From contig JAGHSK010000004.1 in NCBI GenBank assembly GCA_018065895.1, forward strand, positions 1 to 45,256: a stretch of DNA of 45,256 bases, in the 5' to 3' direction. A program made the translations under genes and the position numbers. The DNA comes from Candidatus Cacconaster equi. GTDB lineage: Bacteria > Bacteroidota > Bacteroidia > Bacteroidales > UBA932. Within the stretch, counting starts at the first letter, position 1; each line of letters starts with the position of its first letter. A model generated the notes under the pieces. The model was not told the DNA's origin, searched no databases, and saw nothing but the letters and a program-made list of their open reading frames with translations. Positions 28,059-45,256 of this stretch are shown piece by piece.

Positions 28059-28922
28059 ATGAAACTTCATTGCTACAAATACCAGGGAGCCGGCAACGAC
28101 TTCGTGATTATCGACAACAGAAAAGGCGACGTCAATCTTACCGACGAACAGGTAAGACAGTTGTGTGACCGCAGATTCGGTATCGGCTCCGACGGGCTTA
28201 TGCTGCTTGGAGCAGCCCCATCATCCGGTAAGAATCTGGATTTCACGATGCGCTATTTCAATTCCGACGGTCCGGAAGGCACTATGTGCGGAAATGGCGG
28301 AAGATGTCTGGTGGCCTTCGCCGCTCATATGGGCATCAAGAAATTTGAGTTTGAAGCCATTGATGGATATCACAATGCCGAAGTGCTGGAATATGGCCCT
28401 TCACGATGCATAGTCCGTCTGAAGATGCGCAATCTGCCTGTTGTGGATGGAAAGAATCCTGTTGCCAAGCTGGAGGACGGCTATTTCCTCGACACCGGAT
28501 CGGACCATTTTGTAGGCTTCGTCGGAAATGTTGATGAATATGACGTTGACACCAACGGCAAGCGTCTTCGCTGGGACAAACGTTTTCCGAAAGGAACCAA
28601 CGTCAATTTTGTGGAGATTGTCAATCAGGACAGACCGGATGCGGCCCGTGGCCTGAAGGTCCGTACATACGAACGTGGAGTCGAGGCGGAGACATGGGCG
28701 TGCGGTACAGGTGTGACTGCATCCAGCATTGTCTCATATCTGTCAGGCGCAAAGTCGTACGACAAGTTTGAGGCGAACGGCGTGGAGCACGTCAGATTCG
28801 CCATCCGGGCCCGTGGCGACAAATTGAGCGTGGATTTCGTTGCGAATGCGGACGGTTCGTTCGAGGATATCTATCTTACCGGTCCCGCTACAAAGGTCTT
28901 TGAAACCGATATGGATATTTAG
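28059..28922 (+). CDS. dapF: Diaminopimelate epimerase
   Basis: 287 aa, the normal DapF length. It has two homologous halves, each with a catalytic Cys: Cys77 in MCGNGGRC and Cys215 in ACGTGVTAS. GAGNDFVIID opens the protein and RFGIGSDGL follows, both family signatures. It converts LL- to meso-diaminopimelate for lysine and peptidoglycan. It is the first gene of a tightly packed run; the next gene begins 11 nt later. No other lysine gene is adjacent. Confidence 0.95.
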   Translation: MKLHCYKYQGAGNDFVIIDNRKGDVNLTDEQVRQLCDRRFGIGSDGLMLLGAAPSSGKNLDFTMRYFNSDGPEGTMCGNGGRCLVAFAAHMGIKKFEFEAIDGYHNAEVLEYGPSRCIVRLKMRNLPVVDGKNPVAKLEDGYFLDTGSDHFVGFVGNVDEYDVDTNGKRLRWDKRFPKGTNVNFVEIVNQDRPDAARGLKVRTYERGVEAETWACGTGVTASSIVSYLSGAKSYDKFEANGVEHVRFAIRARGDKLSVDFVANADGSFEDIYLTGPATKVFETDMDI

Positions 28923-28933
28923 AATTTCAGGTG

Positions 28934-29734
28934 ATGAAACTGTTCAAGGAAATAGGTATCAAACGCAAAGTATTCTACGGATGCATCGTTCTGGGAGTGG
29001 TGCTGTTCTTTTCGGGTGTGATAAGCATCTTTGAATACAGTACGATGAACGATTATGTTTCCGAGCTTATTGGCGATAATATCAAGAGTATCAATACTGC
29101 GCGTGAACTGCTTTCAGTATCGGAACAATACAATGTCAAGTTGATGAGAGACCTTGTCCTTGACAATGAACAGGACACCATCGACCAGAATATGGTTTTC
29201 GAAAACGCTGAGGTTATCGAGTCATTCGAGGAGGTGAGCCGCGATTTCATAACGAAAGCCGAACGTCAGGCGGCGGACTCGGTCATCTTCGCCTATGCCG
29301 CCTATATGCAGGTGGCCAGGGAGGCTGAACAGATTTATCAGAAGACGTATGCCGAGCGTGAGGATTGGTATTTCAACCGCCTGCAGCCTGTCTATCTCAA
29401 GTTCAGGGGGTATATGATGAAGTTGACGGCGACCTGTCAGGATGCTCTCGTAAAAAATTCACAGAGCCTCCAGGAGGGATTTTACAGGAGTATCATGCCA
29501 CCGTTCGTGTCGATGATCATCGGTATCGTGATGGTGATTCTCCTGAACTATTATCTGAACTATTTCGTCATAAATCCGATATTGAAAATCAACAGAGGGA
29601 TAAAGGTGACAAAGAAACTCGGAAGCTCTTATTCCGTGGATGTTGACAGCGACGACGAGATAAAGGAGCTGAATGAAAACGTCAAGGACATAGTTGACCT
29701 GAACCAGTCATACAGGAAGAAACTCAATCAATGA
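28934..29734 (+). CDS. Membrane sensor with HAMP-like domain, no output domain
   Basis: 266 aa. TM1 at about residues 14-34, an extracytoplasmic helical bundle of about 150 residues resembling the four-helix ligand-binding domain of chemoreceptors, TM2 at about 188-212, then a HAMP-like segment (NPILKINRGIKVTKK, DEIKELNENVKDIVDL) to the end. There is no kinase, cyclase or methyl-accepting domain, so the signal must be passed by protein contact. The stop overlaps the trkH start as ATGA, which suggests the partner is TrkH. The frame has a GTG one codon earlier; ATG at 28934 is used. Function is inferred. Confidence 0.7.
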   Translation: MKLFKEIGIKRKVFYGCIVLGVVLFFSGVISIFEYSTMNDYVSELIGDNIKSINTARELLSVSEQYNVKLMRDLVLDNEQDTIDQNMVFENAEVIESFEEVSRDFITKAERQAADSVIFAYAAYMQVAREAEQIYQKTYAEREDWYFNRLQPVYLKFRGYMMKLTATCQDALVKNSQSLQEGFYRSIMPPFVSMIIGIVMVILLNYYLNYFVINPILKINRGIKVTKKLGSSYSVDVDSDDEIKELNENVKDIVDLNQSYRKKLNQ

Positions 29735-31185
29735 ATCTAGGAATCATATCCAGAAATGTGGGGATAGCGCTTATATGCAACGCCGTCTTCATGTTCCTGT
29801 CAGCTGCCGTAGCGGCCATCAATGGCTTCGATTCCTCATTTTCCCCTTTGATGGTGAGTGCAATGATTACGATGATGGTGGGAATTTTTCCGCTCATATT
29901 CGTACGCCGTAAAAATGACATCAACACCAAGGAGGGACTCGCCATCCTGCTTTTTGCGTGGTTTCTGAGCTGTATCTTCGCAATGCTGCCGTATGTTCTC
30001 TGGGGCGGCCCGTTCTCGGTGGCGAATGCCTGGTTCGAGAGCGCATCCGGAATTACGACTACAGGGGCGACCATTCTCAATGACATCGAATCCCTTCCGA
30101 AAGGACTCCTCTTCTGGAGGTCTTCCACCCACTACATAGGCGGTTTGGGAGTTGTCGTTTTCATAATGATGATTCTTCCATCTTTCGGAACGGTCCGCTT
30201 CAAGATGAGCAAGATGGACCTCGACGATGTGTCAAAGAGCAATTATCGCTATAAATCAGGCAAATTCATAAAGGTGATCATCTCTGTCTACCTTGGAATT
30301 ACCATCTCCGCTTTCTTCCTGTTGATGATTGCCGGGATGCCTATGTTTGATGCTGCGAATCATGCGATGAGCGTTGCCGCTACAGGAGGATTCAGTACGA
30401 GGAATGCATCCATCGCGGCATATGACTCTCCTGCCATAGAACTGGTGCTGGCATTTTTCATGATTGTATCAAGCCTTCACTACGGACTGATATATGCTTC
30501 TTTTGCCACAAGGAGTTTCAAGGTGCTGAAGAACCCCGTTTCAAAATTCTATCTCTCGACAATATTTGTCGTGACAATTGCAGTCACCATCAATATTCTT
30601 GCCTCCGGCCTCGCTGACAGTTTCCTCGAGGGTTTGAGAAACGGTTTCTTCGAGGTGGTTTCAACAATTTCAACCACAGGTTTTGCCATAACGGACACAA
30701 GTTCGTGGCCTGTATTCTCGATACTTCTGCTGATGTACGTTGCCATTCAGTGCGGATGCTCGGGGTCAACGACCAGTGGACTGCGCTCTGACAGAGTGTG
30801 GATATTGCTGAAGGCGGCAAAGGCGCAGCTCGTAAAGATGGCTCATCCCAATGCCGTTGTTCCGGTTAAGACCGATGGTCAGGTGATAGAGAAGGAGATG
30901 CTTTCAAGCGTTTCGATATATGTATGTCTCTACATCATCTTCGTCTTTGTAATGGCTCTGGTATATTCTCTATTCGGGTTTGACATAATGGGCTCGATGA
31001 GCGCATCAATATCGATGATGAGCAACGTCGGTCCTTGCTTCGGTGAATTCGGATCTTCACTCGGTTCATTTGCCGCAGTTCCTGCGATGGCCAAGATACT
31101 GATGGGATTCCAAATGATAGTGGGTCGTCTCGGACTTTATTCAATACTTTTGGTATTCTTCGTATATCGCAGACGTGCAGCATAA
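29731..31185 (+). CDS. trkH: TrkH/KtrB-type potassium uptake channel subunit
   Basis: 484 aa, with four M1-P-M2 repeats. The filter regions are visible as SGITTTGATI, SVAATGGFSTRN, STISTTGFAITDT and SNVGPCFGEFG, each with the selectivity Gly. It takes up K+ or Na+/K+ in the inner membrane. The usual RCK partner (TrkA/KtrA) is not in the window; instead the gene follows the HAMP-like sensor with a 4-nt overlap. The helicase gene starts on its stop codon (TAATG, 1-nt overlap). A C-terminal cytosolic ending is short. Confidence 0.92.
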   Translation: MNLGIISRNVGIALICNAVFMFLSAAVAAINGFDSSFSPLMVSAMITMMVGIFPLIFVRRKNDINTKEGLAILLFAWFLSCIFAMLPYVLWGGPFSVANAWFESASGITTTGATILNDIESLPKGLLFWRSSTHYIGGLGVVVFIMMILPSFGTVRFKMSKMDLDDVSKSNYRYKSGKFIKVIISVYLGITISAFFLLMIAGMPMFDAANHAMSVAATGGFSTRNASIAAYDSPAIELVLAFFMIVSSLHYGLIYASFATRSFKVLKNPVSKFYLSTIFVVTIAVTINILASGLADSFLEGLRNGFFEVVSTISTTGFAITDTSSWPVFSILLLMYVAIQCGCSGSTTSGLRSDRVWILLKAAKAQLVKMAHPNAVVPVKTDGQVIEKEMLSSVSIYVCLYIIFVFVMALVYSLFGFDIMGSMSASISMMSNVGPCFGEFGSSLGSFAAVPAMAKILMGFQMIVGRLGLYSILLVFFVYRRRAA

Positions 31186-32606
31186 TGGGAGTCGAGAGTT
31201 TTTTTGTTGACAGCCTCAGGAAGAATCTTCGGTTCCCTGCGACTCCTTGTCAGGAGCATTTGTTCGATGTGCTTGCGAAATTCACGATGCAGTATGAGGA
31301 GTGCGACCTTCTGGTCGTCAGCGGCTATGCCGGTACGGGAAAGACATCGGCCGTTGCCGCATTCGTCAAGACGCTTTCGGATCTTGGCTATAAATACGTA
31401 CTGCTTGCTCCCACGGGGCGTTCAGCCAAGGTTCTTTCGAATTTCACCGGACGGAAGGCTTCGACAATACACAAACATATCTACCGCCAGAAATCACTTA
31501 AAAACGGGATAGGGGAGTTTGAACTCAATTTCAACAAGACAAAGGATACATATTTCATCGTGGATGAGGCTTCCCTCATTTCAGTTGACCACTCCGCCGG
31601 CGGCGCTCCCAATCTTTTCGGCTCGGGAGACCTTCTGGATGACTTGATATCCTTCGTTCGAAGCGGTGTTGATGACAAACTTGTGATTATCGGCGATCCG
31701 GGACAGCTGCCCCCTATAGGCATGGACCAGAGTCCGGCTCTTGACCTCTCATATATGGGACGTTATGGGAAAGTGATGACGGCGGAACTTTCCACCGTGG
31801 TCCGGCAGGCGGCCGAAAGCGGCATTCTGACCAATGCCACGCTTGTGAGGAATCTCATCGAAAGAGGTGTGGCGGAGAAGCCGAAGATGAGGCTCGACGG
31901 ATTCACCGACGTGGAGCGAATCACGGGAACGGAACTTATCGATGCACTCTCTGACGCAATTGACAAGTATGGTCTTGACAATTTGGCAGTCCTCTGCCGT
32001 TCCAACAAGATGGCTAACCGGTACAATGCTGGCATACGCTCAAGCGTGCTGTATCGTGAAGAGAAACTCTCAAAGGGTGACAAACTTATGGTGGTCAAGA
32101 ACTGCTATCAATTTGTTGAGGATATACCGGAACTGGACTTCATCGCCAATGGGGATGTCGCCCGTCTCGAGAAGATATCTCATTATGAGGAGCGGTACGG
32201 AATCAATTTTGCAGAGGCTGTATTGTCGTTCCCTGATTACAATGACGTTGAGGTGACTGCCAGGGTTATTCTTGACACGCTTCAGAGTGAGAAGCCGGCA
32301 TTGTCGGATGAACAGCAGAACGCCCTTTATCAGGGTGTCAATGAGGATTATTCTCACATAAAAGGTGTGAGAAAAAGGTATGAAGCTGTTCGTGAAGACA
32401 AGTATTTCAATGCTCTGCAGATAAAATACGCCACGGCCATCACATGTCACAAGTCGCAGGGAGGACAATGGAAATGTGTATTCATTGACAATCCCTTTTG
32501 GCACGAATTGACGGTGGATGACCTCAAATGGCTTTATACGGCCATCACCAGAGGAGTGGAAAAAGTATATTTCGTCAACTTCAAAGATGATTTTTTTAAC
32601 GGTTAA
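31185..32606 (+). CDS. RecD/Pif1-like ATP-dependent DNA helicase (SF1)
   Basis: 473 aa. Walker A SGYAGTGKT (about residues 46-54), Walker B FIVDEASLIS, the GDPGQLPPI motif, the following arginine-rich region, and near the C-terminus TCHKSQGGQW and LYTAITRGVEKVYFV (UvrD_C_2-type motifs V-VI). This is the single-polypeptide RecD-like helicase common in Bacteroidota. RecD-type N-terminal domains are absent. Its stop is 12 nt before the YugP-type gene. The exact role, in repair or in recombination, is not readable from the sequence. Confidence 0.88.
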   Translation: MGVESFFVDSLRKNLRFPATPCQEHLFDVLAKFTMQYEECDLLVVSGYAGTGKTSAVAAFVKTLSDLGYKYVLLAPTGRSAKVLSNFTGRKASTIHKHIYRQKSLKNGIGEFELNFNKTKDTYFIVDEASLISVDHSAGGAPNLFGSGDLLDDLISFVRSGVDDKLVIIGDPGQLPPIGMDQSPALDLSYMGRYGKVMTAELSTVVRQAAESGILTNATLVRNLIERGVAEKPKMRLDGFTDVERITGTELIDALSDAIDKYGLDNLAVLCRSNKMANRYNAGIRSSVLYREEKLSKGDKLMVVKNCYQFVEDIPELDFIANGDVARLEKISHYEERYGINFAEAVLSFPDYNDVEVTARVILDTLQSEKPALSDEQQNALYQGVNEDYSHIKGVRKRYEAVREDKYFNALQIKYATAITCHKSQGGQWKCVFIDNPFWHELTVDDLKWLYTAITRGVEKVYFVNFKDDFFNG

Positions 32607-32618
32607 AACATAAGACAT

Positions 32619-33311
32619 ATGAATGCGAACACTACTTATTGGGTTTTGTTCATCGGAGTGGCGGTGCTCAGTTACATTGTCCAGGCAATGTTCCAAAGAA
32701 GGATAGACAAGGCCTCGAGAATCCCTATGAAAAGGGGACTTACAGGCCGTGAAGTGGCAGAACTCATGCTTCGTGACCACGGAATAAACAACGTGTCGGT
32801 AATATCCACCCCGGGCCAGCTTACCGATAACTTCAACCCTTCCAACAATACTGTGAATCTCAGCGAATCCGTATATTCCCAGTCATCTGTTGCAGCGGCC
32901 GCCGTGGCAGCTCACGAGTGCGGGCATGCAGTCCAGCACGCGACAGGCTATCTTCCTGTCAAGCTGCGCAGCGCACTTGTTCCAATCGTATCTTTTTCTT
33001 CAAGGGCTGTGACGTGGGTGCTTCTTCTCGGGATGCTTCTGCTGAAGATATTCCCAGGACTGATGCTCTTCGGCATCATACTTTTCGCCTTGACGACTCT
33101 GTTCAGCATCGTCACACTGCCGGTTGAAATCAACGCCAGCAGAAGGGCCCTGGCCTGGCTTGAAGGTGCGGGTATGACTGATTATTCAAACAGGGATGAA
33201 GCGGAAGGCGCATTGCGTGCCGCGGCATATACTTATGTGGTGGCTGCCTTGAGCTCTCTTGCCACATTGATATATTATATAATGATATTTATGGGCGGAC
33301 GCCGCAATTGA
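32619..33311 (+). CDS. YugP-type zinc metallopeptidase
   Basis: 230 aa integral membrane protein with three to four hydrophobic segments. AAHECGHAVQH (residues 98-107) carries the HExxH zinc motif. The EINASRRALAWL segment follows the second hydrophobic block and probably gives the third ligand. This matches the YugP-like/neutral zinc metallopeptidase family. Its substrate is unknown. It starts 12 nt after the helicase and ends 4 nt before the DPP-IV-like gene. Confidence 0.88.
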   Translation: MNANTTYWVLFIGVAVLSYIVQAMFQRRIDKASRIPMKRGLTGREVAELMLRDHGINNVSVISTPGQLTDNFNPSNNTVNLSESVYSQSSVAAAAVAAHECGHAVQHATGYLPVKLRSALVPIVSFSSRAVTWVLLLGMLLLKIFPGLMLFGIILFALTTLFSIVTLPVEINASRRALAWLEGAGMTDYSNRDEAEGALRAAAYTYVVAALSSLATLIYYIMIFMGGRRN

Positions 33312-33315
33312 TGTC

Positions 33316-35214
33316 ATGAAGAGATTTTTTGTCACATTGTCATTCATTCTGGCTGTCTGCCTTGCACAGGCGCAGACACAGGAACTGATTGAAGGTTGGG
33401 TTAACCCAACCTATTCACCGGATTCCACAAAAATTGCATATACTCTTGACAATGACCTCTATTCGATAGATGTGAAAACGAAAGAGGTTGTTCGTCATAC
33501 TTTTGACGGTACTAACTTGATTCTCAACGGATATGCCTCATGGGTATATTATGAGGAGATATTGGGCAGGCCTTCAAAGTACAGGGCTTTCTGGTGGTCG
33601 CCCGACAGCAAGGTGATTGCATACTACCGCTTTGATGACACGAATGTCCCGATGTTCCCAATATATTATGCGGACGGACAGCACGGCTATATCAGGGAGA
33701 CCCATTATCCGAAGACGGGAGATCCGAATCCTGAAGTAAAAGTGGGCTTTGTTTCAGTTGATGGTGGAGAGACGGTGTGGGCTGATTTCAATCCCACGAA
33801 AGACCAGTATTTCGGCATTCCGTTCTGGAGTGCTGACGGCAGGAACTTTATGGTAGCCTGGATGGACCGCGCCCAGGATAATCTCGAACTTTTCAGTGTC
33901 AGCCCGGTGGACGGACATAAAGTCTCCATTTACAAGGAGCATCAGGACTGCTGGATTGATTGGATGGAAGAGATGCTCTTCACTGACAAAGGAATGTATA
34001 TTGTCCGCGATTTCTCCGGGTGGCAGCAGATATATTTCCTTTCGTTTGACGGATCAACTTTCCAGCAGGTCACAACGGGTGAAAACTGGGGCATTCATCT
34101 GCTGAAGGCGGATAAGAAGCACGTATATTTCACGGCAAGGCGTGAATCCCCGGTCCGTAATGACGTATACCGTGTTTCCATTGTCAGAAATGCACCTGGA
34201 AAGGTTGAACGTCTGTCATATGGTGAATACAATTTCGCTAACGTTCGTTTTTCTCCTGATGGAGAGACGTTCTCTGCTGAAGTTTCGAACTTCAAGACTC
34301 CGAAAAGGATTGTAACTCTTCCATTGCAACCGATGAGGAAGTTTGATCAGACAAAAGTCACAATAAGGAAGGATACGTACAATCCGTCTGATTCCCTGCT
34401 TTCAACCCCTGACCTTCTTTTTGTAAAGATGCGCGACGGAGTTGAGATCCCGGCTTCGGTTATCTGGCCGAAGGATATGGATACGACCAGAAAGTATCCG
34501 GTAATCGTCTATATCTACGGAGGACCTGACAATCCTCAGGTAAAGGATGTCTGGCGCGGTAACAGATTCGCGGAACAGTGGTGGGCAGGCCATGGTGTGA
34601 TTCAGGTCACCTTGGACAATCGTGCAGGAGGATATCTCGGCAAGAAGGGAATTGAATCCGTTTACAGAAAACTCGGTGTGGTGGAACTTGAGGACTTTAT
34701 CGACGGAATCAAATATTTCCGCTCCCTGCCATATGTCGACGGAGACAAAATAGGTGTTTACGGATTTTCCTTCGGAGGGACAATGACGACTCTGTGTGTC
34801 ACTCAAGGCAACGAATATTTCAAATATGGAATCACCGGAGGAGGCGTATATGACTGGAGTCTGTACGACACCCACTATGCGGAGCGATATATGGACCGTC
34901 CGCAGGACAATCCTGAAGGATATGCCGCATCACGTGTTATCGACCGGATGTCGGCATATAAAGGCGACAGTACAAACATGCTTCGCCTGACTCACGGTAC
35001 TGGAGATGACAACGTCCATTTCCAGAATACTCTGCAGTTGATAAACGAACTTCAGAGGCAGCATAAGGACTTTGAACTTATGATATATCCGGGTGGAATG
35101 CACGGATACAGGAATGATCAGGGCAGGCACTCTGATATGCAGGATTTCAGATTCTGGTACAGACATCTGTTCGGAACGGAATTGCCTGAAGAATTGAAAG
35201 AACATTTTAAATGA
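33316..35214 (+). CDS. Secreted S9B dipeptidyl-peptidase IV-like protein
   Basis: 632 aa with a signal peptide (cleavage after AQAQ near residue 20). An N-terminal beta-propeller includes the DPP-IV-type double Glu in YYEEIL (residues 79-82). The C-terminal alpha/beta hydrolase domain has Ser485 in GFSFGG, Asp in GTGDDNVHFQN (564-565) and His596 in GGMHGY. The nucleophile motif is GFSFGG rather than the common GWSYGG. DPP-IV-like enzymes release dipeptides with Pro or Ala at position 2 and feed peptide uptake. It ends with a 4-nt overlap with the phosphohexomutase gene. Confidence 0.9.
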   Translation: MKRFFVTLSFILAVCLAQAQTQELIEGWVNPTYSPDSTKIAYTLDNDLYSIDVKTKEVVRHTFDGTNLILNGYASWVYYEEILGRPSKYRAFWWSPDSKVIAYYRFDDTNVPMFPIYYADGQHGYIRETHYPKTGDPNPEVKVGFVSVDGGETVWADFNPTKDQYFGIPFWSADGRNFMVAWMDRAQDNLELFSVSPVDGHKVSIYKEHQDCWIDWMEEMLFTDKGMYIVRDFSGWQQIYFLSFDGSTFQQVTTGENWGIHLLKADKKHVYFTARRESPVRNDVYRVSIVRNAPGKVERLSYGEYNFANVRFSPDGETFSAEVSNFKTPKRIVTLPLQPMRKFDQTKVTIRKDTYNPSDSLLSTPDLLFVKMRDGVEIPASVIWPKDMDTTRKYPVIVYIYGGPDNPQVKDVWRGNRFAEQWWAGHGVIQVTLDNRAGGYLGKKGIESVYRKLGVVELEDFIDGIKYFRSLPYVDGDKIGVYGFSFGGTMTTLCVTQGNEYFKYGITGGGVYDWSLYDTHYAERYMDRPQDNPEGYAASRVIDRMSAYKGDSTNMLRLTHGTGDDNVHFQNTLQLINELQRQHKDFELMIYPGGMHGYRNDQGRHSDMQDFRFWYRHLFGTELPEELKEHFK

Positions 35215-36875
35215 TTTATACGATGGCAACGGATTATATGGAAAGAGCCAAGAGCTGGCTTTCCGAAGAATTTGACGAAAAGACACGCCGTGAGGTTATT
35301 GAACTTATGAAAGGGGATCCGAAGATTCTTGAGGATGCTTTTTACCGTAATCTGGAATTCGGAACAGGTGGACTGAGAGGCATTATGGGCGCAGGCACAA
35401 ACCGTATGAACAGCTATACTGTCCGTATGGCTACGCAGGGCCTGGCAAATTACCTCAAAAAGACATTCCCGGGTGAAGATATGAGTGTGGTCATATCCTA
35501 TGACAGCCGCAACAACAGCGCACTTTTTGCGAAGGATACCGCCAGAGTTCTGATTGCCAATGATATAAAGGTTTATGTATTCGACAATATACGACCTACG
35601 CCTGAATTGAGCTTCGCCATCAGATATCTCAAATGCGAGGCCGGCATTATGATTACGGCCTCCCACAATCCAAAGGAATACAATGGATACAAAGTTTTCT
35701 GGGAGGATGGCGGTCAGATAATAACTCCACACGACACTGCCATCATAGAGGAGGTCAACAAGATAGAATCCATATCCCAGGTGCTGTACGATGAATCCGG
35801 ACATCCTGACGGAATCGGCGCTGACGTTGACAATGCTTTCCTGAGCAGCGTCCTCTCTCTGCTTCTTTCTCCCGACAGTATCGCCCGACACAGCGACTTG
35901 AAGATTGCCTACACACCTCTTCACGGAACAGGTGTGCGTCTTGTACCTTCCGCTTTGGCCAGAATCGGCTTCAAGAACGTATATCACGTCGATGATCAGG
36001 ATGTGAGTGATGGAAACTTCCCGACGGTCGTTTCTCCTAATCCTGAGGAGCCTACCGCCATGAAGATGGTGATTGACAGAGCTGACGAAGTTGGAGCGGA
36101 CATAGCTCTGGGCACTGATCCGGATGCGGATCGCGTCGGACTGGCGGTCCGGGACGCCGACGGCAGAATGGTTCTTCTCACCGGCAACCAGACAGCCTCC
36201 ATTCTAATAAGCTATATGCTTACCAGATGGCAGGAACTCGGCAAATTGAAGGGGAACGAATATGTGGTCAAGACAATCGTCACTACAGAACTCATACGTA
36301 CGATCTGTGACAAATACAAGGTCAAGATGTACGATGTACTGACCGGATTCAAATACATTGCGGACATTGTCCATAATAACGAAGGAAAATCCACCTTTAT
36401 CGGAGGCGGAGAGGAGAGCAACGGATTCAATGCCGGAGAATTCGTACGCGACAAGGATTCAATCGTGACCTGCTCGCTTATTTGCGAATGCGCCGCATGG
36501 CTTGCCGACCCGGGAAAGACATTGTACGGATACTTGCAGGAGATATATGCCGAATACGGCTATTATAAGGAGAGGCTTCTTTCCGTTACAAAGAAGGGAA
36601 AAGATGGAATTGCCCAGATACAGCAGATGATGGTCGACTTCAGGTCGAATCCTCCGAAAGAGCTGGCAGGCTCACCTGTAGTCAAGGTTATGGATTACAA
36701 ATGTCCTGAAAAGACAGGTCTTCCTTCATCCAATGTCCTGCAGTTTTTCAGTGCTGATGGCTGCAAGGTCACTGTACGCCCTTCAGGCACGGAACCGAAG
36801 ATAAAGTTCTATGTTGCGGCTCGTGGGGCTGATGCTGATTTGAGGAGCGAACAGCTGCTTGAGCAGTTCAGATAA
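35211..36875 (+). CDS. Phospho-sugar mutase (phosphoglucomutase/phosphomannomutase family)
   Basis: 554 aa. It has the phosphoserine loop TASHNPKEYNGYK with Ser151, the metal loop DPDADR (303-308), the sugar loop GGGEESNGF, and the phosphate-binding RPSGTEPK. The length and the sequence LEFGTGGLRGIMG match the PGM2-like group of Bacteroidota (phosphoglucomutase or phosphomannomutase). It interconverts hexose 1- and 6-phosphates. The ATG at 35211 overlaps the previous gene by 4 nt; a later ATG at 35223 is an alternative. The next gene starts on its stop codon. Confidence 0.92.
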   Translation: MIYTMATDYMERAKSWLSEEFDEKTRREVIELMKGDPKILEDAFYRNLEFGTGGLRGIMGAGTNRMNSYTVRMATQGLANYLKKTFPGEDMSVVISYDSRNNSALFAKDTARVLIANDIKVYVFDNIRPTPELSFAIRYLKCEAGIMITASHNPKEYNGYKVFWEDGGQIITPHDTAIIEEVNKIESISQVLYDESGHPDGIGADVDNAFLSSVLSLLLSPDSIARHSDLKIAYTPLHGTGVRLVPSALARIGFKNVYHVDDQDVSDGNFPTVVSPNPEEPTAMKMVIDRADEVGADIALGTDPDADRVGLAVRDADGRMVLLTGNQTASILISYMLTRWQELGKLKGNEYVVKTIVTTELIRTICDKYKVKMYDVLTGFKYIADIVHNNEGKSTFIGGGEESNGFNAGEFVRDKDSIVTCSLICECAAWLADPGKTLYGYLQEIYAEYGYYKERLLSVTKKGKDGIAQIQQMMVDFRSNPPKELAGSPVVKVMDYKCPEKTGLPSSNVLQFFSADGCKVTVRPSGTEPKIKFYVAARGADADLRSEQLLEQFR

Positions 36876-39313
36876 TGGTCGACGAGGTTACCAGGGATTT
36901 CATTCTCGAGCACGGCGGGGAAGAGACTTCCAGGCTCCTTTTTGCTGCGGACTCATATCCGGGCGTGGACGTCAGGCAGGCTGCCAGGCTGATAGATGCG
37001 AGAAAGAAGGCGGCTCGTAAGTTGCCCGAATGGTATTCTCATCCCGAAATTGACTATCCTTCCTCTCTGTCACTGGAACAATGCTCCTGCCAGAAAGCAG
37101 CGCAATACAAACAGCGTTTCGTCCCGGAAGGGTCTGTCGTAGCCGACATTACGGGAGGTTTGGGAGTTGACAGCTATTTCCTTTCAAGAAGGGCTGCGCA
37201 TCTCTACTATTTCGAACGTCAGGATGTTTTGTGCGAGGCTGCCCGCAACAATTTCGCCGTGCTCGGTGCTGACAATATCACGATTACCTGCGCAGAGGCG
37301 ATAGATTCTTCGCGCCGGTATGACTTGATATATGCCGATCCTGCCAGAAGAGGCAAATGTTCGGAAAGAGTCTATTCCGTAACGGATTGTGAACCGGACA
37401 TCTACGCCTTGAAGGAGAGCCTTTTCTCTCTCTCTGACAGATTGCTTGTCAAGATTTCTCCGATGGCGGACATTACAAGAACTCTGAAAATGTTTCCTGA
37501 ATGTTCCGAAGTACATGTGGTGAGTGCCGACGGTGAGGTGAAGGAGATACTGCTTTATATGGAGAAGGGGTTCTGCGGCATGCCGAAGACTTTTGCCGGA
37601 AATCTTGAATTCACACAGGAGCAGGAGAGGGAGGCCGGTCTTCGTATCGCGTCCCGTGTGGGCAGGTTGATATATGTGCCGTCGAAGGCAATTCTGAAGG
37701 CCGGGGCATTCAAACTCGTTGCACAAAGATATGGTGTGGAAGCACTTGATGTCAGCACCCACATCTACACTTCAGACGAATATTCTCCTGAATTCCCAGG
37801 CAGGTGTTATACCGTGCAGGAGGTTGTCCCTTGGAACAATTCCGCCGCCTCCCGGATGGCCGGACGCTACCCTTCGGCTGAACTGACTGCCGTGAATTTC
37901 CCGCTCGACACCAATTCGCTTCGCAAGAAATTGAAAATGTCCGACGGAGGAGAGGTCCATATTTTCGCCCTTACGGCCGCAGCTCTCAAAGAGGAAAACA
38001 AAAAGGGACTTGCAATGATTGTGGCCAAGCCGTATGACTCCGGAAAAAGCAATATAGAGTGGCTTTTCGCGCAGGTGCCGTCGTTTCAGAAGGTGGGCGC
38101 CAGAGCATACAAACCCGGAATCGAAACTATGAAGCTGTTCGACGGTAAACTCGGACATCCTCATCTCAAATACAGGACAATCCATATTGCCGGCACGAAC
38201 GGAAAAGGTTCGACAAGCCATATGCTTTCCGCGGGACTTGCCGCGTGCGGGTATAAGGTTGGGCTTTACACTTCGCCTCATCTGAAGGATTTCCGCGAAA
38301 GGATGAGAATCGTTGAAGGATCAGGCTACAGGATGATTTCTCCGGAAAAAGTCGACGGATTCATAGATCATTGGAAGCCTTTTTTCGAAAAGGAAAAACC
38401 GTCATTTTTTGAAATAACCACTGGAATGGCATTTGACTTCTTTGCGAGGGAAAATGTTGACGTGGCCATAATAGAGACAGGCCTCGGCGGACGTCTCGAC
38501 TCGACGAATGTCATTACGCCGGTAATGAGTGTCATAACCAACATAGGACTGGAGCACTGCGAGCAGCTCGGATATACGCTTGAGGAAATCGCAGGAGAGA
38601 AGGCAGGAATCATCAAGCAAGGCGTTCCCGTAGTGGTCGGGGAGATGGTTGAGGAAACCAGGCCTGTCTTTGAGCGGAAAGCCGAAGAGATGAATGCTCC
38701 GCTCACCTTCGCCCGTGAATGTGGACCGTATCTTTCAGTCAATGTGTCTGAACTTGACTTGAAAGGTGATTATCAGCAGCGTAACCTGGTTACCTTAAGC
38801 GCTGCGTCAAGCGTTTTGAGTGAAATCCTTGATATTGACAAAAAGAAATTCGAGGATGGCGTCCGTTCTGCGGCAGGAATCACCGGTCTTCGCGGGAGGT
38901 GGGAGACATTGCGGGAAGCCATCCCTTCAGATGGCACCGGAGGCAGAGGCTTTGCCCGCATAATATGTGATACCGGGCACAATGCTCATGGTTTTCGCTG
39001 GATCAGGGAGCAGATTGACCGTATATGTTGTGACTACGACAATATATTTTTCATCTTCGGTGTTGTGGCTGACAAGGATATTGAGGCAATTGCCTCGCTG
39101 CTGCCACGCGACGTGAATTATATTTTCACCCAGGCTTCGACTCAACGTGCCTTGAAATCCGTGGATCTGGCCAATGTGATGCACGACCACGGAATATCCG
39201 GCCGCGTGACGGCAAGCGTGCGTGAGGCTCTTGCCCTGGCCGACAGCCTTGCAGGAGAAAAGGATCTGATATTTGTCGGCGGCAGCAATTTTGTTGTGGC
39301 GGAGGCTATTTGA
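36875..39313 (+). CDS. THUMP-like methyltransferase fused to folylpolyglutamate synthase
   Basis: 812 aa in two parts. Residues 1 to about 385 are a THUMP-like class I methyltransferase of the PG_1098 type, with the SAM motif VADITGGLGVDS (89-100), YADPARRG as catalytic motif (153-160), and a ferredoxin-like/THUMP-like C-terminal part (VPSKAILKAGAFKLVAQR). From about 392 a complete FolC follows: IEWLFAQVPSFQKVG, the P-loop AGTNGKGSTSH (439-449), SPHLKDFRERMRI, ETGLGGRLDSTN and GEKAGIIKQG. FolC adds glutamates to folate. In most bacteria the two parts are separate proteins. The join at 38027-38054 includes an out-of-frame ATG and an A5 run, so an indel is possible. It starts on the previous stop codon (1-nt overlap). 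Confidence 0.85.
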   Translation: MVDEVTRDFILEHGGEETSRLLFAADSYPGVDVRQAARLIDARKKAARKLPEWYSHPEIDYPSSLSLEQCSCQKAAQYKQRFVPEGSVVADITGGLGVDSYFLSRRAAHLYYFERQDVLCEAARNNFAVLGADNITITCAEAIDSSRRYDLIYADPARRGKCSERVYSVTDCEPDIYALKESLFSLSDRLLVKISPMADITRTLKMFPECSEVHVVSADGEVKEILLYMEKGFCGMPKTFAGNLEFTQEQEREAGLRIASRVGRLIYVPSKAILKAGAFKLVAQRYGVEALDVSTHIYTSDEYSPEFPGRCYTVQEVVPWNNSAASRMAGRYPSAELTAVNFPLDTNSLRKKLKMSDGGEVHIFALTAAALKEENKKGLAMIVAKPYDSGKSNIEWLFAQVPSFQKVGARAYKPGIETMKLFDGKLGHPHLKYRTIHIAGTNGKGSTSHMLSAGLAACGYKVGLYTSPHLKDFRERMRIVEGSGYRMISPEKVDGFIDHWKPFFEKEKPSFFEITTGMAFDFFARENVDVAIIETGLGGRLDSTNVITPVMSVITNIGLEHCEQLGYTLEEIAGEKAGIIKQGVPVVVGEMVEETRPVFERKAEEMNAPLTFARECGPYLSVNVSELDLKGDYQQRNLVTLSAASSVLSEILDIDKKKFEDGVRSAAGITGLRGRWETLREAIPSDGTGGRGFARIICDTGHNAHGFRWIREQIDRICCDYDNIFFIFGVVADKDIEAIASLLPRDVNYIFTQASTQRALKSVDLANVMHDHGISGRVTASVREALALADSLAGEKDLIFVGGSNFVVAEAI

Positions 39314-39336
39314 AGGATTATAAACATTTTTGAAAT

Positions 39337-40677
39337 ATGAAAAGAATAATTGCAATCGTTCTGACATTCTGTGCTTTTGTATGTTCAGCACAGACTCTGC
39401 CAAGCAAATGGAAAGTTACCCGCACCAGTGCGAAGAATTATTGTGAAAGCTGGACGGGCCCGATGCATATGGTTCCGGCAACAGAGTGTGGAACGGCCTA
39501 TCTTACCGTTTTACGGAAAGACGGTGGAAATGATGCCGGGCTCAGGTATTCTATTCACAAGGAGCAGATGCCACGTGTAGAGGGGCTTACGGAGGGGGAT
39601 TGTATGATGATTGTGATTCCTGCCGGAAAGGGGAAGATCGGCCCATACGTCGAGATGGACCTTATGCTTGGAAGCAGACCGGATTCTCCAAAATATTTCC
39701 TGGTGGAATATTTCGACAAAGGTGAGTGGAAAGTTTCACAGGCGGCTCTACGTACCGCGAAGGAGGACCCTTCCATCCGATATAACGTGAAATGCAGCGG
39801 ACGCGACAATGAACCTGCAAACGTGCTTCAGACCATACGCTTCTCAAAGCCTGTGAAGGGGGACGTGAAGATCAGGCTTCGTGTCGTTGGAGATATCTCC
39901 TGCAGTGGAAAACCACTTTCCGGAGATGCGCCAGACAGTGGTGTCCGTATGTTGAGTTACGGATACATAGGCGGATATGTGGCTGACTTCGGGGCCTGGA
40001 TACCGAAAGATACCCTGAAGGTAGGCTGGGTCGGCAATTCGTTCACGTTTGTCAATGCGGCTGACTTTATTCTGAAGAATCTTGCATGGAATGAAGGTCA
40101 CTATCTTGATTTCCGCATCAGCGTATATCCTGGCGCCCGTTTCCGGAACCATCTCATACTTGGAAACTCTCTGGATGTCGTGACTGAAGGCGGGTATGAC
40201 TATGTGATTCTGCAGGACCAGAGCCAGCAGGCCGCCCGTTACGGCCGCGACTCCACTGCCACCATCAGGGAACACAGCAAGACCCTTTCGTCTGTCTTCA
40301 AGTATTTCTCTCCTGACTGCAAGTTCATTTATGAGCAGACCTGGGCGTTCGCACAGGACGATTTCGGAGGATTCGGCAGTTTCGAGGAGTTTGACAGGTG
40401 CGCCGACAAAGGTGCCGCGCTGCTTGCCAAGGTTGTAGGCGGTGAGGTCTCACCGATTGCACAGGCTTTCGCCATCGTACGTGCAGAGCGTCCCGACATC
40501 AACCCGTACAGCACCGATTTCCATCATCCGGCAGATTACGGGGCATACTTGAAGGCTTGCGTGAATTACCTTGTGATGTTCAAGAAGCCCTTCGGCGACA
40601 ATCCTGCTGATTTCGCCCTCAATCCTGAGATTACCGCTTATCTCCGCTCAGTTGCCGAGAGGGTGGTCCTGAAGTAG
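39337..40677 (+). CDS. Secreted DUF4886-like SGNH-type hydrolase
   Basis: 446 aa with a signal peptide (cleavage after CSAQ near residue 19). Residues about 20-220 are a beta-rich domain of unknown family. From about 228 the DUF4886/SGNH-type core begins: WVGNSFTF with Ser235 as probable nucleophile, YDYVILQDQSQQAA, and YSTDFHHPADYGAYL with Asp394 and His396/His397. SGNH enzymes are esterases, so it is probably an ester or acyl hydrolase outside the cell or in the periplasm. It starts 23 nt after folC and 24 nt before the GH3 gene. Its last 206 codons are repeated at 43998. Confidence 0.8.
   Translation: MKRIIAIVLTFCAFVCSAQTLPSKWKVTRTSAKNYCESWTGPMHMVPATECGTAYLTVLRKDGGNDAGLRYSIHKEQMPRVEGLTEGDCMMIVIPAGKGKIGPYVEMDLMLGSRPDSPKYFLVEYFDKGEWKVSQAALRTAKEDPSIRYNVKCSGRDNEPANVLQTIRFSKPVKGDVKIRLRVVGDISCSGKPLSGDAPDSGVRMLSYGYIGGYVADFGAWIPKDTLKVGWVGNSFTFVNAADFILKNLAWNEGHYLDFRISVYPGARFRNHLILGNSLDVVTEGGYDYVILQDQSQQAARYGRDSTATIREHSKTLSSVFKYFSPDCKFIYEQTWAFAQDDFGGFGSFEEFDRCADKGAALLAKVVGGEVSPIAQAFAIVRAERPDINPYSTDFHHPADYGAYLKACVNYLVMFKKPFGDNPADFALNPEITAYLRSVAERVVLK
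40057..40677 (+). repeat. 621-bp direct repeat, copy A (DUF4886 3' part)
   Basis: This segment, codon 241 to the stop of the DUF4886 gene, aligns without any gap to 43998-44618 in the same orientation, 3,941 bp away. The first roughly 210 nt differ at about 8 positions and the next 210 nt at about 50 by my hand count. The repeat brackets the GH3 and lipoprotein-hydrolase genes. Confidence 0.9.
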
Positions 40678-40701
40678 CCGATATCTGATTATATATGGCT
40701 T

Positions 40702-42360
40702 ATGTCGTTTTTGAACCATATCATAATCAAGTTTATGGTCGTTCAGGGCCATATGTCTGTCCGCAGGATGGAGCGTATGGAACGCAGCGGTCGTAAGACA
40801 AATGAGAGACTGCTGTTTTCCATTTTGAGACGCAACAGGAACTGTGAGTTTGGTAAAGAACACAATTTCAGGAACATACATTCCATAGAGGAGTTCCGCT
40901 CCTGCGTTCCAATCTCTGAATACAAGGACTACGACCGGGCCATTTCCCGTATGGAGCAGGGACAAAGGAACGTCCTGACTTCATATTCTGTCAGGTCTTT
41001 CGCAAAATCTTCAGGGAGCGTCGGAAAAATCAAGCGCATTCCCATTACGAGGCCTCACATCAACGTATATATGCGTTATACCCTGACAAGGGCCCTGGCC
41101 CTTGCCGACATCCGGCACCGTGAACTTTACAAACGCCCGCTTCCAAGCGGCAAGATATTCGGCGCGTTGTGTTCGGAAACCAGGATAGTCAACGGCGTCC
41201 GCTACAGTAATGTCGCTGACCTCGGAGCAAGGCATTTGAGATTCATCTATCCCTATATCCTGACAATCCCTTTGCGGACACTGCTGCCATTGGAGGGCAA
41301 CGGGTTTGTCTATTGCTACATCCGTTTCAGCCTTGCTCAGGAGAATGTCAGTTACTTCTTCACGGTCTTCCTGTCGGACTGCGTATATATAATGGACTAT
41401 ATCGACAAGAACCGGGAGATGCTGCTCAGGGATATTGGGAATGGGACAATTGATGAAAGCATCGACTTGGAGCCATCCGTACGCCGCTATCTTGAGAAAA
41501 AAATCAAGCCTCTTCCACAGCGTGCGGCTTTCCTGCGCGAAGAGTTTGAAAAGGGGAAAGATCCGGGACTTGTCAGGCGCATTTGGCCGAAGATGCAGGT
41601 ATATAGCGCAATTGGTTCCGCCACATTCTATCCCTATAAGCATATCGTTGACTCCTGTGCCGGCAACATTTGGCACGACAACCTTATCTACGGCGCTTCG
41701 GAAGGGCTGTTCGCCGCTACCGACAGCCTTGATTCAGAGCGTTACCTGCTCCTTGCGGACAGCTGCTTCTATGAGTTTATCCCGGAGGGTGAAGAGAACG
41801 CAGCCCCCCTGCTGCTTGACGAACTCGAGGTTGGAAAGGAATATGAAATCGTCATAACGAACCAAGCCGGACTGTACCGTTACCGCATCGGAGACATCGT
41901 ACGTATCCTGGGATATAAAGGGGAGACTCCATACCTGGTGTTCTCGCGCAGGCGCGGGGAACTCATCAACATTTGTGGAGAGAAAACCACGGAGGAGGAG
42001 ATGCAGCATGTGATAGACCTTCTCGGGAAGGAATCCGGATGCTCCATCCTGAATTGGGCAGTCTGCGCTGATGACAGCGATTTGGTGCGATGTTATATGA
42101 TTCTTGTTGAAAATGACCGGGGAAAAGACCTTTCCGTATATTCGCAGTGGATCCATTCCCAGATTGCTCAAGCCAACACAAGGTATGCTGATATGTCAGC
42201 TTTCATAGGCCGGGCAGTCATTCTCAACCAGATGCCGGGAACTCACGCGCAGTGGCGCGAACAACGGCTTTCAAATGGCACCTCCGCGGCCCAGTACAAG
42301 CCTGTCCATATTCTGAATACGGAGGAAAAACGGGAATTCTTCCTCTCCCGGACACTCTAG
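40702..42360 (+). CDS. GH3 family acyl-adenylating enzyme
   Basis: 552 aa with no signal peptide, so cytosolic. The GH3 version of the adenylation fold is clear: SSGSVGKIKRIPIT (103-116) as the phosphate loop, YGASEG (330-335), LYRYRIGDIV (391-400) with the ribose-binding Asp398, NICGEKTTEEE (hinge) and the C-terminal QYKPVHIL. Plant GH3 enzymes adenylate carboxylic acids such as auxin or jasmonate and conjugate them to amino acids. The function of bacterial relatives is largely unassigned. It is the last gene of the plus-strand run. Its stop overlaps the stop of the convergent lipoprotein-hydrolase gene in the palindrome CTAG. Confidence 0.85.
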   Translation: MSFLNHIIIKFMVVQGHMSVRRMERMERSGRKTNERLLFSILRRNRNCEFGKEHNFRNIHSIEEFRSCVPISEYKDYDRAISRMEQGQRNVLTSYSVRSFAKSSGSVGKIKRIPITRPHINVYMRYTLTRALALADIRHRELYKRPLPSGKIFGALCSETRIVNGVRYSNVADLGARHLRFIYPYILTIPLRTLLPLEGNGFVYCYIRFSLAQENVSYFFTVFLSDCVYIMDYIDKNREMLLRDIGNGTIDESIDLEPSVRRYLEKKIKPLPQRAAFLREEFEKGKDPGLVRRIWPKMQVYSAIGSATFYPYKHIVDSCAGNIWHDNLIYGASEGLFAATDSLDSERYLLLADSCFYEFIPEGEENAAPLLLDELEVGKEYEIVITNQAGLYRYRIGDIVRILGYKGETPYLVFSRRRGELINICGEKTTEEEMQHVIDLLGKESGCSILNWAVCADDSDLVRCYMILVENDRGKDLSVYSQWIHSQIAQANTRYADMSAFIGRAVILNQMPGTHAQWREQRLSNGTSAAQYKPVHILNTEEKREFFLSRTL

Positions 42361-43877
42361 AACAGCCCCGGTTTGCCGGGGTTCCTATGGGTCAGTTCAA
42401 AGCCCCAGATGTAGAACGTTGCAGGGAAGTGGTCTAGACCGTAAAGCGTCCTCATCCTGACATTTTCGTTGTTGCCGCTGTCATGCAGGTTTCTGTACAG
42501 GGTCTCGTTGATGTTGTAAGGCATAAACGTGTCGCCCTTCGAACAGAATATCAAGAGCGGAGTCTTGGGCGCATATCCGTCGATGAGCGAGTTCTCTCCC
42601 AAAGCGCGCATAAGGGCCTGCCACTCCTTGCAGTTCTTGTCAAGTGTCCCGTCTTCGTTGAAAAGATTGGGATTAAGTATGTCTGTCAGCTTCTCGAATC
42701 CGTGCAGAATGATTTCAGAGGTGATTCCGGAAGGGAAGGAGACATCGGCCAGCCAGTAGCAGTTGTCGTAGGCATCAAAAAAGGAGAGGCTTCCTTCTGC
42801 GAGTTGCAGCCTTACGGCGCAGAATTCCGGAGAGAAGAAATCTTCCAGTAGAAGTTTCTTTTTTTCTCCCTGCCCGTCGTTGTAGAAGAAATACTCCTTC
42901 GGGGAGTATACTGCGTGGGCCTTATAGGAGCTGTTGATGGTGGCGGCAAGAGCGTCAGGCTTCAGGAAATCCATCTGGATGGAGTTGTCATAATTGTCGA
43001 TGCACTGGTCGTACAGGATACTGTAATCCGCGCTGCCCTCTCCCATAAGCGTGCCTCCAAGACGGATCTTGTCCCTGTTGATGTCCGCATATTGGGGATC
43101 GTTTTCCAGGATCTTCAGCACGGCCAGGGCGCAGGCGCCTCCGTTGCTTATTCCCATATTGTATGTGTGATAGTCGGGAGACAGCTCAAAGTTCAAGTCG
43201 GGATTGTCCTTGAGGACATCCAGAAGTTCAAGCGCTGCAAGCTCTCCGTCGATGGCCTGTCTTGCCTTCAGGTTATGCTCTGCAATCGGGACAAAGGTGC
43301 CCGGTTTTCTCTTGTTGATGCCACCTCCCTGATAAAAAGGAGAGACCACCATATCCCTGAACAGAATGCATCTGGCCTGGGTGACGGTTGCGATGAGTTT
43401 CGTCATCGTGTCTGTCATATTGAACATCGAGTGGCTGAGGGAGATGTTGGAGAAGGTGATTTTCCTCCCGTTCTTGAAGGTAGGGAACGATACCAGCGTG
43501 GAAAGGACGATATCCTCTCCGGCAGCGTCCTTGGAGAGATAACTGACCTGATAGGTCCAGAGAACGAGGTTGAGAAGGGTGTCAGAAGAGCACTCAATCT
43601 CCTCGAAGGCGGGAACACCCTCGGTGCCTTCCATATAGGTGTCCTGAAGAGAAGCCATGGTCGAGTTTGCCTCTTCCAGCGCCAGGGCGGCGGATTTGAC
43701 GCTTACCAGGTCGTAGGAAATCAGCTTCGAAGGCTCGACGACCATCACCCGCTGCTCCTCCTGAACATTTTCGGGCTCTTGTGGCAGAAGAGGTTCGGCT
43801 ATTTCAGCACAAGCGCATACGGCGCAGGACATAACGGCCAGCAAGGCGGCCTTCGTCAATTTGTCAAAACAAGTCAT
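42357..43877 (-). CDS. Lipoprotein alpha/beta hydrolase
   Basis: 506 aa with a lipoprotein-like signal (MTCFDKLTKAALLAVMSCAVCAC; the lipidated Cys is Cys18 or Cys23), so anchored to a membrane, probably facing the periplasm or cell surface. An alpha/beta hydrolase triad can be read: Ser in GISNGGA, Asp in CSKGDTFMPY, and His in GLDHFPAT. The rest resembles secreted lipase/peptidase-type hydrolases with a large lid. Substrate unknown. Its promoter is complete and lies next to the 5' breakpoint of the truncated DUF4886 copy. Its end overlaps the GH3 gene by 4 nt. Confidence 0.8.
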   Translation of the reverse strand: MTCFDKLTKAALLAVMSCAVCACAEIAEPLLPQEPENVQEEQRVMVVEPSKLISYDLVSVKSAALALEEANSTMASLQDTYMEGTEGVPAFEEIECSSDTLLNLVLWTYQVSYLSKDAAGEDIVLSTLVSFPTFKNGRKITFSNISLSHSMFNMTDTMTKLIATVTQARCILFRDMVVSPFYQGGGINKRKPGTFVPIAEHNLKARQAIDGELAALELLDVLKDNPDLNFELSPDYHTYNMGISNGGACALAVLKILENDPQYADINRDKIRLGGTLMGEGSADYSILYDQCIDNYDNSIQMDFLKPDALAATINSSYKAHAVYSPKEYFFYNDGQGEKKKLLLEDFFSPEFCAVRLQLAEGSLSFFDAYDNCYWLADVSFPSGITSEIILHGFEKLTDILNPNLFNEDGTLDKNCKEWQALMRALGENSLIDGYAPKTPLLIFCSKGDTFMPYNINETLYRNLHDSGNNENVRMRTLYGLDHFPATFYIWGFELTHRNPGKPGLF

Positions 43878-43904
43878 ATCTGCATCACACTATTTCCAAT
43901 CACA

Positions 43905-43935
43905 CAAATGTACCAATTTTTCTTTTCATATCAAA
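43905..43935 (-). promoter_or_regulatory. Full promoter of the lipoprotein hydrolase gene
   Basis: On the minus strand TTTG (43935-43932), a 19-nt spacer, and TACATTTG (43912-43905) match the Bacteroidota consensus exactly. Transcription would start near 43898, about 20 nt before the ATG at 43877. Confidence 0.75.
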
Positions 43936-43949
43936 TTCATCTGCCGCAT

Positions 43950-44618
43950 ATGCAGCTTGCAATGCCATTTATCGAAAACAATGAACCGCAATTCCTCGCG
44001 GCTGACTTTATTCTGAAGAATCTTGCATGGAATGAAGGTCACTACCTTGATTTCCGCATCAGCGTATATCCTGGCGCCCGTTTCCGGAACCATCTCATAC
44101 TTGGAAACTCTGTGGTTGTCGTGACTGATGGCGGTTATGAATATGTGATTCTGCAGGATCAGAGCCAGCAGGCCGCCGGTTACGGCCGCGACTCCACTGC
44201 CACCATCAAGGAGCACACTCAGACACTTTCTTCCGTATTCCGGTATTTCTCTCCTGACTGCAAGTTTGTCTATGAGCAGACCTGGGCCTTTGAGAAGGAT
44301 GAGTATGGAGGATTCGGAAGTTTTGAAGAGTTCGACAAGTGTGCTGACAAGGGAGCTGAATCGCTTGCCAAACTTATCCATGGGGAGGTTTCTCCTATTG
44401 CGCAGGCATTCGCCGTTGTAAGGGCGGAGAGACCTGACATTAATCTGTATAGCACTGATTATCACCACCCTGCTGATTTCGGTGCATACCTTAAGGCTTG
44501 CGTGAACTACCTCGTGATGTTCAAGACGCCTTTCGGCGATAACCCTGCGGATTTCGCTCTCAATCCTGAGGTTACCGCATATCTTCGTTCAGTTGCAGAG
44601 AGAGTGGTTTTGAAATAG
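43950..44618 (+). pseudogene. 5'-truncated second copy of the DUF4886-like gene
   Basis: From 43998 on, the frame encodes a close homologue of residues 241-446 of the secreted DUF4886-like protein (ADFILKNLAWNEGHYLDF onward to VAERVVLK) without any indel. The upstream part is missing: no signal peptide, no beta domain, and no GNSFT block with the nucleophile Ser. An ATG at 43950 or 43962 would add only 12-16 unrelated codons (QLAMPFIENN). The remaining part still has HHPAD. With no nucleophile and no export signal it is very likely a remnant, although the reading frame has stayed open and many differences are synonymous. Confidence 0.75.
43998..44618 (+). repeat. 621-bp direct repeat, copy B
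   Basis: This is the partner of 40057-40677, in the same orientation and with the same length to the stop codon. Similarity begins exactly after the codons for GNSFTFVN of the full gene. Identity falls from about 96% in the first 210 nt to about 76% in the next 210 nt. Confidence 0.9.
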
Positions 44619-44922
44619 CGATTCAATTTACAGGCTGTACTGAGAATTGCATTGTCGCCTGTGATTTAATTTTCTTTAAACGATAATTATTGCTAACTTT
44701 GTACCTAATATGGTGGTCTCCGAAACCCCATAAGGCCGACCTGCGGTCAAAAGATTCGACCTCTTCCTCCAGCGACTGGGGAACGTTGAGAGCGGCACAA
44801 GCCGTATCTTACTGATATGCTGCCATATAGTTTCAAACGGAGTGAAACGGCGGCAGGTTTTGTTGTATATATAAATCAGACTTAATATTATTGAACAGAA
44901 GTTCAGTTGGTTTGCCGCGAAG
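44619..44922 (+). promoter_or_regulatory. Promoter and hairpin-rich 5' leader of the UpxY-like gene
   Basis: This 304-nt stretch has no convincing gene. A promoter lies at 44671-44701: TTTC, 19 nt, TAACTTTG (44694-44701). Transcription from about 44708 gives a leader of about 215 nt. It holds at least five short hairpins: GACC/GGTC (44738-44748), CCAG/CTGG (44769-44779), CGGC/GCCG (44793-44804), ATATG/CATAT (44815-44828) and GTTTCA/TGAAAC (44830-44848). A seven-codon ORF (44710-44733, MVVSETP) starts nearly at the predicted start site. An attenuation or antitermination leader is plausible but not shown. Confidence 0.5.
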
Positions 44923-45256
44923 ATGGTTAAGAACCGTCCTCTGGTCAAGAGTATTGTCCAACGTGACGGAGTGAAGACCTACATCGCGCCGGTTGTGTCC
45001 AATATCCTCTTCATCTGCTGCACAAGAAGATACATCGATACTCTGGTCGAATGCTGCCCCGGGTCGCTTTATTTCTACGGCAACCCGGAACGAACCGAAC
45101 CACAGGCCATAAACGAAAGGCAGATGCGCAATTTCATGCTCGTCACTTCCGCTCCCGAGGACAGCCTCATACCCCTCGACGAGGTGGACCGCGAATTCCT
45201 GCAGGGCCAGAAGGTCCGTGTGACCGGAGGCATTTTCGAAGGTGCCGAGGGGGTGG
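44923..45256 (+). CDS. UpxY/NusG-like transcription antiterminator (partial, 3' end outside)
   Basis: Open to the window end. The frame encodes a NusG N-terminal-like domain: WFAAK upstream, then SNILFICCTRRYIDTL, MRNFMLVTSAPEDSLIPLDEVDREFL, and the start of a KOW motif (QGQKVRVTGGIFEGAEGV). In Bacteroidota such UpxY-type proteins head capsule or exopolysaccharide operons and prevent early termination. The first canonical start is ATG at 44923, but homology appears to begin upstream (EQKFSWFAAKM), where the in-frame stretch back to the stop at 44872 holds only non-canonical ATT/ATC codons. The true start is therefore uncertain. The gene continues beyond 45256. Confidence 0.7.
   Translation, partial: MVKNRPLVKSIVQRDGVKTYIAPVVSNILFICCTRRYIDTLVECCPGSLYFYGNPERTEPQAINERQMRNFMLVTSAPEDSLIPLDEVDREFLQGQKVRVTGGIFEGAEGV

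Follow-up and report, generated by a model that had tools for sequence, protein, structure and literature searches.

The window analysed here is an entire contig of 45,256 bases from a metagenome-assembled Bacteroidales genome, that of Candidatus Cacconaster equi (1.65 Mb in 61 contigs, 84% complete). It carries, downstream of folC, a gene for a probably secreted SGNH-like hydrolase (hereafter referred to as copy A) and a 5'-truncated second copy of the same gene (hereafter referred to as copy B), which together form a direct repeat enclosing a GH3-family gene and a convergent hydrolase-like gene. We consider it probable that this arrangement reflects ordinary duplication, truncation, gene conversion and decay beside a variable site. 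The locus was compared with collections of 40 genomes of the genus, 398 of the family and 393 of the order, each containing one genome per species. Candidatus Cacconaster merdequi, from the same GTDB genus, was the sole outgroup behind every test of asymmetry between copies A and B. Cacconaster is placed in the GTDB family UBA932 in a paper in which Bact-11 is also named (PMC8957277).

A direct repeat with mosaic identity

An earlier note on this DNA had described a gap-free direct repeat, and self-alignment confirmed it. The 3' 621 bases of copy A (positions 40057–40677, forward strand) and copy B (43998–44618, forward strand) align without gaps, in the same orientation and in the same codon register, with 523 of 621 bases identical (84.2%), and the homology stops one base beyond the stop codon. 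The self-match scored 681 bits, against 34.6 bits or less in five shuffles of three-base blocks. Self-comparison of the window yielded no second long direct repeat, the remaining off-diagonal matches being short and weak.

Identity is unevenly distributed along the repeat, a feature that, like the 5' truncation of copy B, is absent from the earlier note. The copies are identical at 173 of the first 180 bases (96%; 40057–40236 in copy A and 43998–44177 in copy B, both on the forward strand), versus 350 of 441 (79%) over bases 181–621 (Fisher's test, p = 2e-8), and synonymous divergence (dS) is 0.077 in the first part versus 1.55 beyond it. The ratio of non-synonymous to synonymous divergence (dN/dS) between the copies is about 0.05 outside the tract. 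The best-scoring A–B segment spans repeat bases 1–211, with eight mismatches, and was never reached in 20,000 codon shuffles, the p value of 5e-5 being the floor of this permutation test. The repeat also contains exact A–B runs of 66 and 47 bases. Constraint was rejected as the cause of the 96% stretch, because the identity of copy A to the C. merdequi gene is not elevated there (133/180 bases in the tract, 335/435 outside it). The tract is most naturally read as the footprint of gene conversion in an otherwise older pair of duplicates; sequence seems to have passed between the two copies, and may have done so in either direction. Phylogenetic trees were inferred for four overlapping segments, each as protein and as DNA, and in all eight of them A and B grouped as sisters, with C. 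merdequi outside (support 0.81–0.99).

The full-length and truncated copies

Copy A (39337–40677, forward strand) was delimited by its open reading frame, a profile match and a structure model. It encodes a probably secreted protein of 446 amino acids, in which an N-terminal beta domain is followed by a C-terminal SGNH-like domain of the DUF4886 type. Two motifs were recognized in this protein, GNSF at residues 233–236 and STDFHHP at residues 392–398, which we take to be the putative nucleophile loop (SGNH block I) and the Asp/His block V, respectively. The "DUF4886-like" label of the earlier note is marginal: relative to the PF16227 cut-off of 26.7 bits, copy B lies above (27.7 bits) and copy A below (25.3 bits). 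The structure model of copy A is of moderate confidence, with a mean predicted local distance difference test (pLDDT) score of 62.0, and Foldseek matched it to acetylxylan and peptidoglycan O-acetylesterases and to carbohydrate esterases, a hint of an esterase-type fold; a PDB sequence search with the A1 profile gave no match at E 0.1. The product is predicted to be, probably, a secreted carbohydrate or cell-wall esterase. DUF4886 appears in a table of PMC9487903 as an SGNH-hydrolase family without known activity. On plasmids, the protein had only four matches, all distant.

Copy A starts 23 bases downstream of folC, and the GH3 gene starts 24 bases beyond copy A. Because of these short spacings, copy A is likely to be co-transcribed with both neighbors. 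At positions 36875–39313 of the window, a single open frame (812 amino acids) fuses a PG_1098-like methyltransferase to FolC; in C. merdequi, these proteins are encoded by two frames overlapping by 4 bases.

Copy B consists of 206 codons and a stop codon. It lacks the first 240 residues of copy A and begins at the position of residue 241, just past the GNSF loop, leaving the domain without its first strand and its putative nucleophile loop. The frame is open up to the stop codon shared with copy A. With C. merdequi as the outgroup, four of the assignable residue changes fell in copy A and 17 in copy B, and all three sequences differed at five sites. When a strict codon match to the outgroup was required, copy A had 23 synonymous and no non-synonymous changes, and copy B had 19 and nine, respectively (p = 0.0025); third-position changes outside the tract numbered 23 in A and 22 in B. 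Copy B is probably a young pseudogene that has lost constraint, and the loss would be recent, because the frame has not yet acquired a stop codon. We infer that this copy is not expressed.

Several observations weigh against the view that copy B is a decaying native duplicate. Strict codon matching left unassigned 31 of the 76 differing codons outside the tract, and one of seven inside it. The contrast between third and other codon positions was marginal (p = 0.042), and copy A has itself changed, with the four residues counted above. The open frame of copy B contains possible ATG starts, such that a product without the N-terminal domain may still be made. Moreover, as the tree segments are short and overlapping, and a dS of 1.55 is close to saturation, copy B may instead be a xenologue acquired from a closely related organism.

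Flanking sequences and distribution in relatives

Homologues of window positions 28,059–40,677 are present in identical order in C. merdequi. The earlier note had proposed a search for relatives with a single DUF4886-type gene and no intervening block, and C. merdequi (G003) is such a relative: its single gene, beside folC, is followed by a convergent gene, presumably asparaginase-like, and no match to the GH3 gene, the hydrolase gene or copy B was found in the 20 kb read. The earlier note had also envisaged that all relatives might share the arrangement of the window; no relative examined has it.

A folC match was obtained in 36 of the 40 genus genomes, and a DUF4886-type protein in three (own genome included). 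The DNA downstream of folC was read over about 6 kb per genome in 20 of the 34 other congeners with such a match (one contig ended at 1.5 kb), and none of the 20 had a match to copy A, the GH3 gene, the hydrolase gene or the asparaginase-like gene at E 1e-5. These block-free congeners also lack a DUF4886-type gene beside folC. At the level of the family, DUF4886-type matches at E 1e-20 were found in 41 of 398 genomes (own genome included) and were common in one other genus. The idea that a second copy is a peculiarity of the window genome was rejected, as eight other family genomes hold two to four copies, and having two is not unusual.

The right ends of both repeats are synteny breaks, each seen in one relative. 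On the side of copy B, homology to the genome of another species (G004) begins 15 bases beyond the stop codon. The corresponding segment (44633–45256, forward strand; 85% identical to G004) comprises a leader and the start of an UpxY-type antiterminator gene, the name being taken from the G004 homologue, which scored 98.9 bits, just below the cut-off of 100. This leader and the UpxY-type gene are also present in G004, where they come after a gene that we take to be cutC-like. By DNA similarity, this side was found in two of the 40 genus genomes (own genome included). Beyond copy B, the right-hand sequence is unrelated to that beyond the single C. merdequi gene, and C. merdequi is therefore not a simple product of deletion between the repeats.

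The UpxY leader itself (44633–44922) is identical to that of G004 at 243 of 292 positions and is thereby conserved no less than the coding part (164 of 207), although the FolC proteins of the two genomes are 59% identical. A stretch of the leader (44741–44783) is unchanged with respect to G004, and this region may possibly be a functional antiterminator leader. A search of positions 36000–45256, including the leader, against Rfam detected no known RNA family at the gathering score.

Origin of the arrangement

According to the explanation that we favor, the SGNH-type hydrolase gene linked to folC, whose product is probably secreted, would have been duplicated after the split from C. merdequi, and purifying selection would have acted on both copies during a long period of divergence. 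Copy B would then have been deprived of its 5' half, nucleophile loop included, its remaining 206 codons coming to adjoin the hydrolase promoter region. At or after truncation, gene conversion of the RecA type would have homogenized about 180–211 bases at the left end of the shared region, after which copy B would have drifted more than copy A. The site downstream of folC is variable, and the GH3 and hydrolase genes there may either have been gained specifically in this lineage or have been retained in it and lost from the relatives examined. We infer this order of events from the comparisons described above. The suggestion that the block arose through the repeat, by a duplication or by an insertion splitting a tandem pair, found no support, as the copies are old compared with the tract (dS 1.55 outside it) and copy B appears to be a decaying remnant.

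It is unlikely, but worth weighing, that copy B came from a close relative together with the UpxY-linked segment, by horizontal transfer or as what remains of a crossover, the similarity at the left end marking the point of recombination. Outside the tract, the identity between A and B (79%) is barely above that between A and the C. merdequi gene (77%), the UpxY side is patchily distributed, and the GC content at third codon positions is lower in copy B (0.522) than in the repeat of copy A (0.628), as might be expected under transfer. The sister relationship of A and B in every tree argues against this origin, although copy B was never used as a query, and a closer match to it could have escaped detection.

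We consider decidedly improbable a recombinational cassette, in which the repeats recombine often, the GH3 and hydrolase genes are deleted and re-amplified, and each deletion restores an A/B fusion beside UpxY. Since the two copies share their codon register, a crossover from one to the other would remove 3,941 bp while keeping a single fused frame of full length. The repeats are indeed direct and in register, with exact stretches of 66 and 47 bases, sequence seems to have passed between them, and the block was not found in relatives, including C. merdequi, which has the same left flank. However, high similarity is limited to about 180 bases, the rest being 79% identical, and the empty site differs from an exact repeat deletion, the right flank of C. 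merdequi being unrelated to that of copy B. Pfam and NCBIfam scans of the genes revealed no mobility gene. Nor does the locus resemble a mobile element or composite transposon, as these scans showed no transposase or integrase and there were no inverted repeats of at least 25 bases over positions 38500–45256. The description of the GH3/hydrolase pair as a loose cassette was accordingly not borne out, the pair not having been found elsewhere as a unit; a cassette is possible but unproven. An inverted promoter or a site-specific inversion around copy B was also considered and rejected: the inverted repeats in 43850–44950 and 40500–40800 were imperfect, only 10–14 bases long and unconvincing.

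An assembly artefact, in which sequence from two organisms or two loci was joined via the repeat, is very unlikely. The genome is a fragmented and incomplete metagenomic assembly, and 638 bases separate copy B from the end of the contig. However, the contig shares exactly its last 127 bases (45130–45256) with an internal stretch of a contig from another species of the genus (G004:C4), the identity being 407 of 499 over the roughly 500 bases before them. We take 127 to be a metaSPAdes k-mer size, and the contig end suggests a cut in the assembly graph at k = 127. Exact direct repeats within the window reach at most 66 bases, less than this k, and copies A and B would therefore not have been merged during assembly.

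We give almost no credence to the notion that copy B is maintained as a silent partner, with A/B recombination excising the GH3/hydrolase pair reversibly and one hydrolase gene of full length remaining in every case; this, if true, would shift the UpxY-headed segment 3.9 kb closer to the folC operon and constitute a built-in switch between amide-making and non-making cell states.

Genes between the repeats

The GH3-family gene (40702–42360, forward strand; 552 amino acids), reported between the repeats in the earlier note, was confirmed by its match to Pfam GH3 (E 3.1e-62). The protein contains the motifs SSGSVGK, YGASEG and YRIGD, which we take to be those of amido synthetases, and it is annotated here as acyl-acid amido synthetase-like. 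Its best PDB match is the plant auxin-conjugating GH3-1 (E 6e-45). It was rejected as an OlsH (lyso-ornithine lipid synthetase; NCBIfam NF052613), with a score of 96.9 bits against a cut-off of 620. The window protein shares the GH3 family, a bacterial host and, as is likely, the formation of N-acyl amino acid bonds with OlsH and the other bacterial GH3 enzymes treated in PMC12493201, and differs from OlsH in falling far below the OlsH cut-off and in having the plant protein as its nearest PDB match.

GH3-like proteins were detected in 21 of the 40 genus genomes (own genome included), and the matches listed outside the own genome were partial and 26–38% identical. Two other genomes of the 398 in the family had matches at E≤1e-40, both 32% identical, and there was no other match at E 1e-60 among the 393 genomes of the order. 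Carriage on a phage or plasmid was considered and rejected within the searches made. On plasmids, only distant matches (<60% identical) were found, in 11 records. Peptide patterns, applied for the GH3 protein only, retrieved no match from IMG/VR. Convergent, side-by-side pairs of GH3-like genes are present in four congeners (G015, G035, G033 and G025).

The second gene of the block (42357–43877, reverse strand; 506 amino acids) overlaps the GH3 gene tail to tail by 4 bases. The convergent gene of the earlier note is thus present, and its designation as a lipoprotein hydrolase is tentative: it comes from a lipobox-like N-terminus and a GxSxG/Asp/His pattern, conserved among four sequences, which together presumably denote a lipoprotein hydrolase of the alpha/beta type. 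Neither Pfam nor NCBIfam yielded a match to the protein at E 0.001. A sequence search of the PDB was likewise negative, and the confidence of the structure model was too low for it to be used (mean pLDDT 45.8). Matches were found in three of the 40 genus genomes, the two outside the own genome being weak and partial, and relatives at E 1e-15 in one other of the 398 family genomes (31–34% identical); there were no plasmid matches.

Upstream of the hydrolase gene, a pattern scan detected a perfect TTTG-N19-TANNTTTG site (43905–43935, reverse strand), which we assume to be the Bacteroidota-type promoter consensus. The whole window contains four such sites, versus 0.14 expected. At 4630–4670, two promoter-like sites that match TTTG-N19-TANNTTTG perfectly overlap, one on each strand, and an imperfect palindrome lies close by, at 4755–4785. 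Sigma-70 promoter and terminator scans gave results no higher than those for shuffled sequences.

Relationship to known systems and significance

In silent-cassette antigenic variation of the pilS/pilE type, a full-length gene exchanges sequence with a 5'-truncated homologous copy. The window shares a full-length gene, a 5'-truncated copy and apparent exchange with this type of system, but it has a single remnant rather than an array, and copy A has changed little (four residues, or none by strict codons). A near-identical patch within a diverged pair, with a sharp fall in dS, is also a feature of gene conversion between paralogues of the same genome, such as the release-factor genes of PMC4530459; the pair described here differs in that one member has been truncated and seems to be decaying, and in that the patch lies right at the edge of the homologous region. 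With the DUF4886/SGNH hydrolases (PF16227; tabulated in PMC9487903), copies A and B share a profile match close to the cut-off, and the model of copy A is esterase-like. They depart from this family in the additional N-terminal beta domain of copy A and in the absence of the first strand and nucleophile loop from copy B.

The locus is a small but clear case, from an uncultured genus of gut Bacteroidales, of what looks like gene conversion involving a live gene and a truncated duplicate of it. It also cautions against inferring a cassette from a direct repeat that flanks two genes. Of more use as a lead may be the divergent GH3 gene, because the assignment of functions to bacterial GH3 enzymes is, according to PMC12493201, only just beginning.

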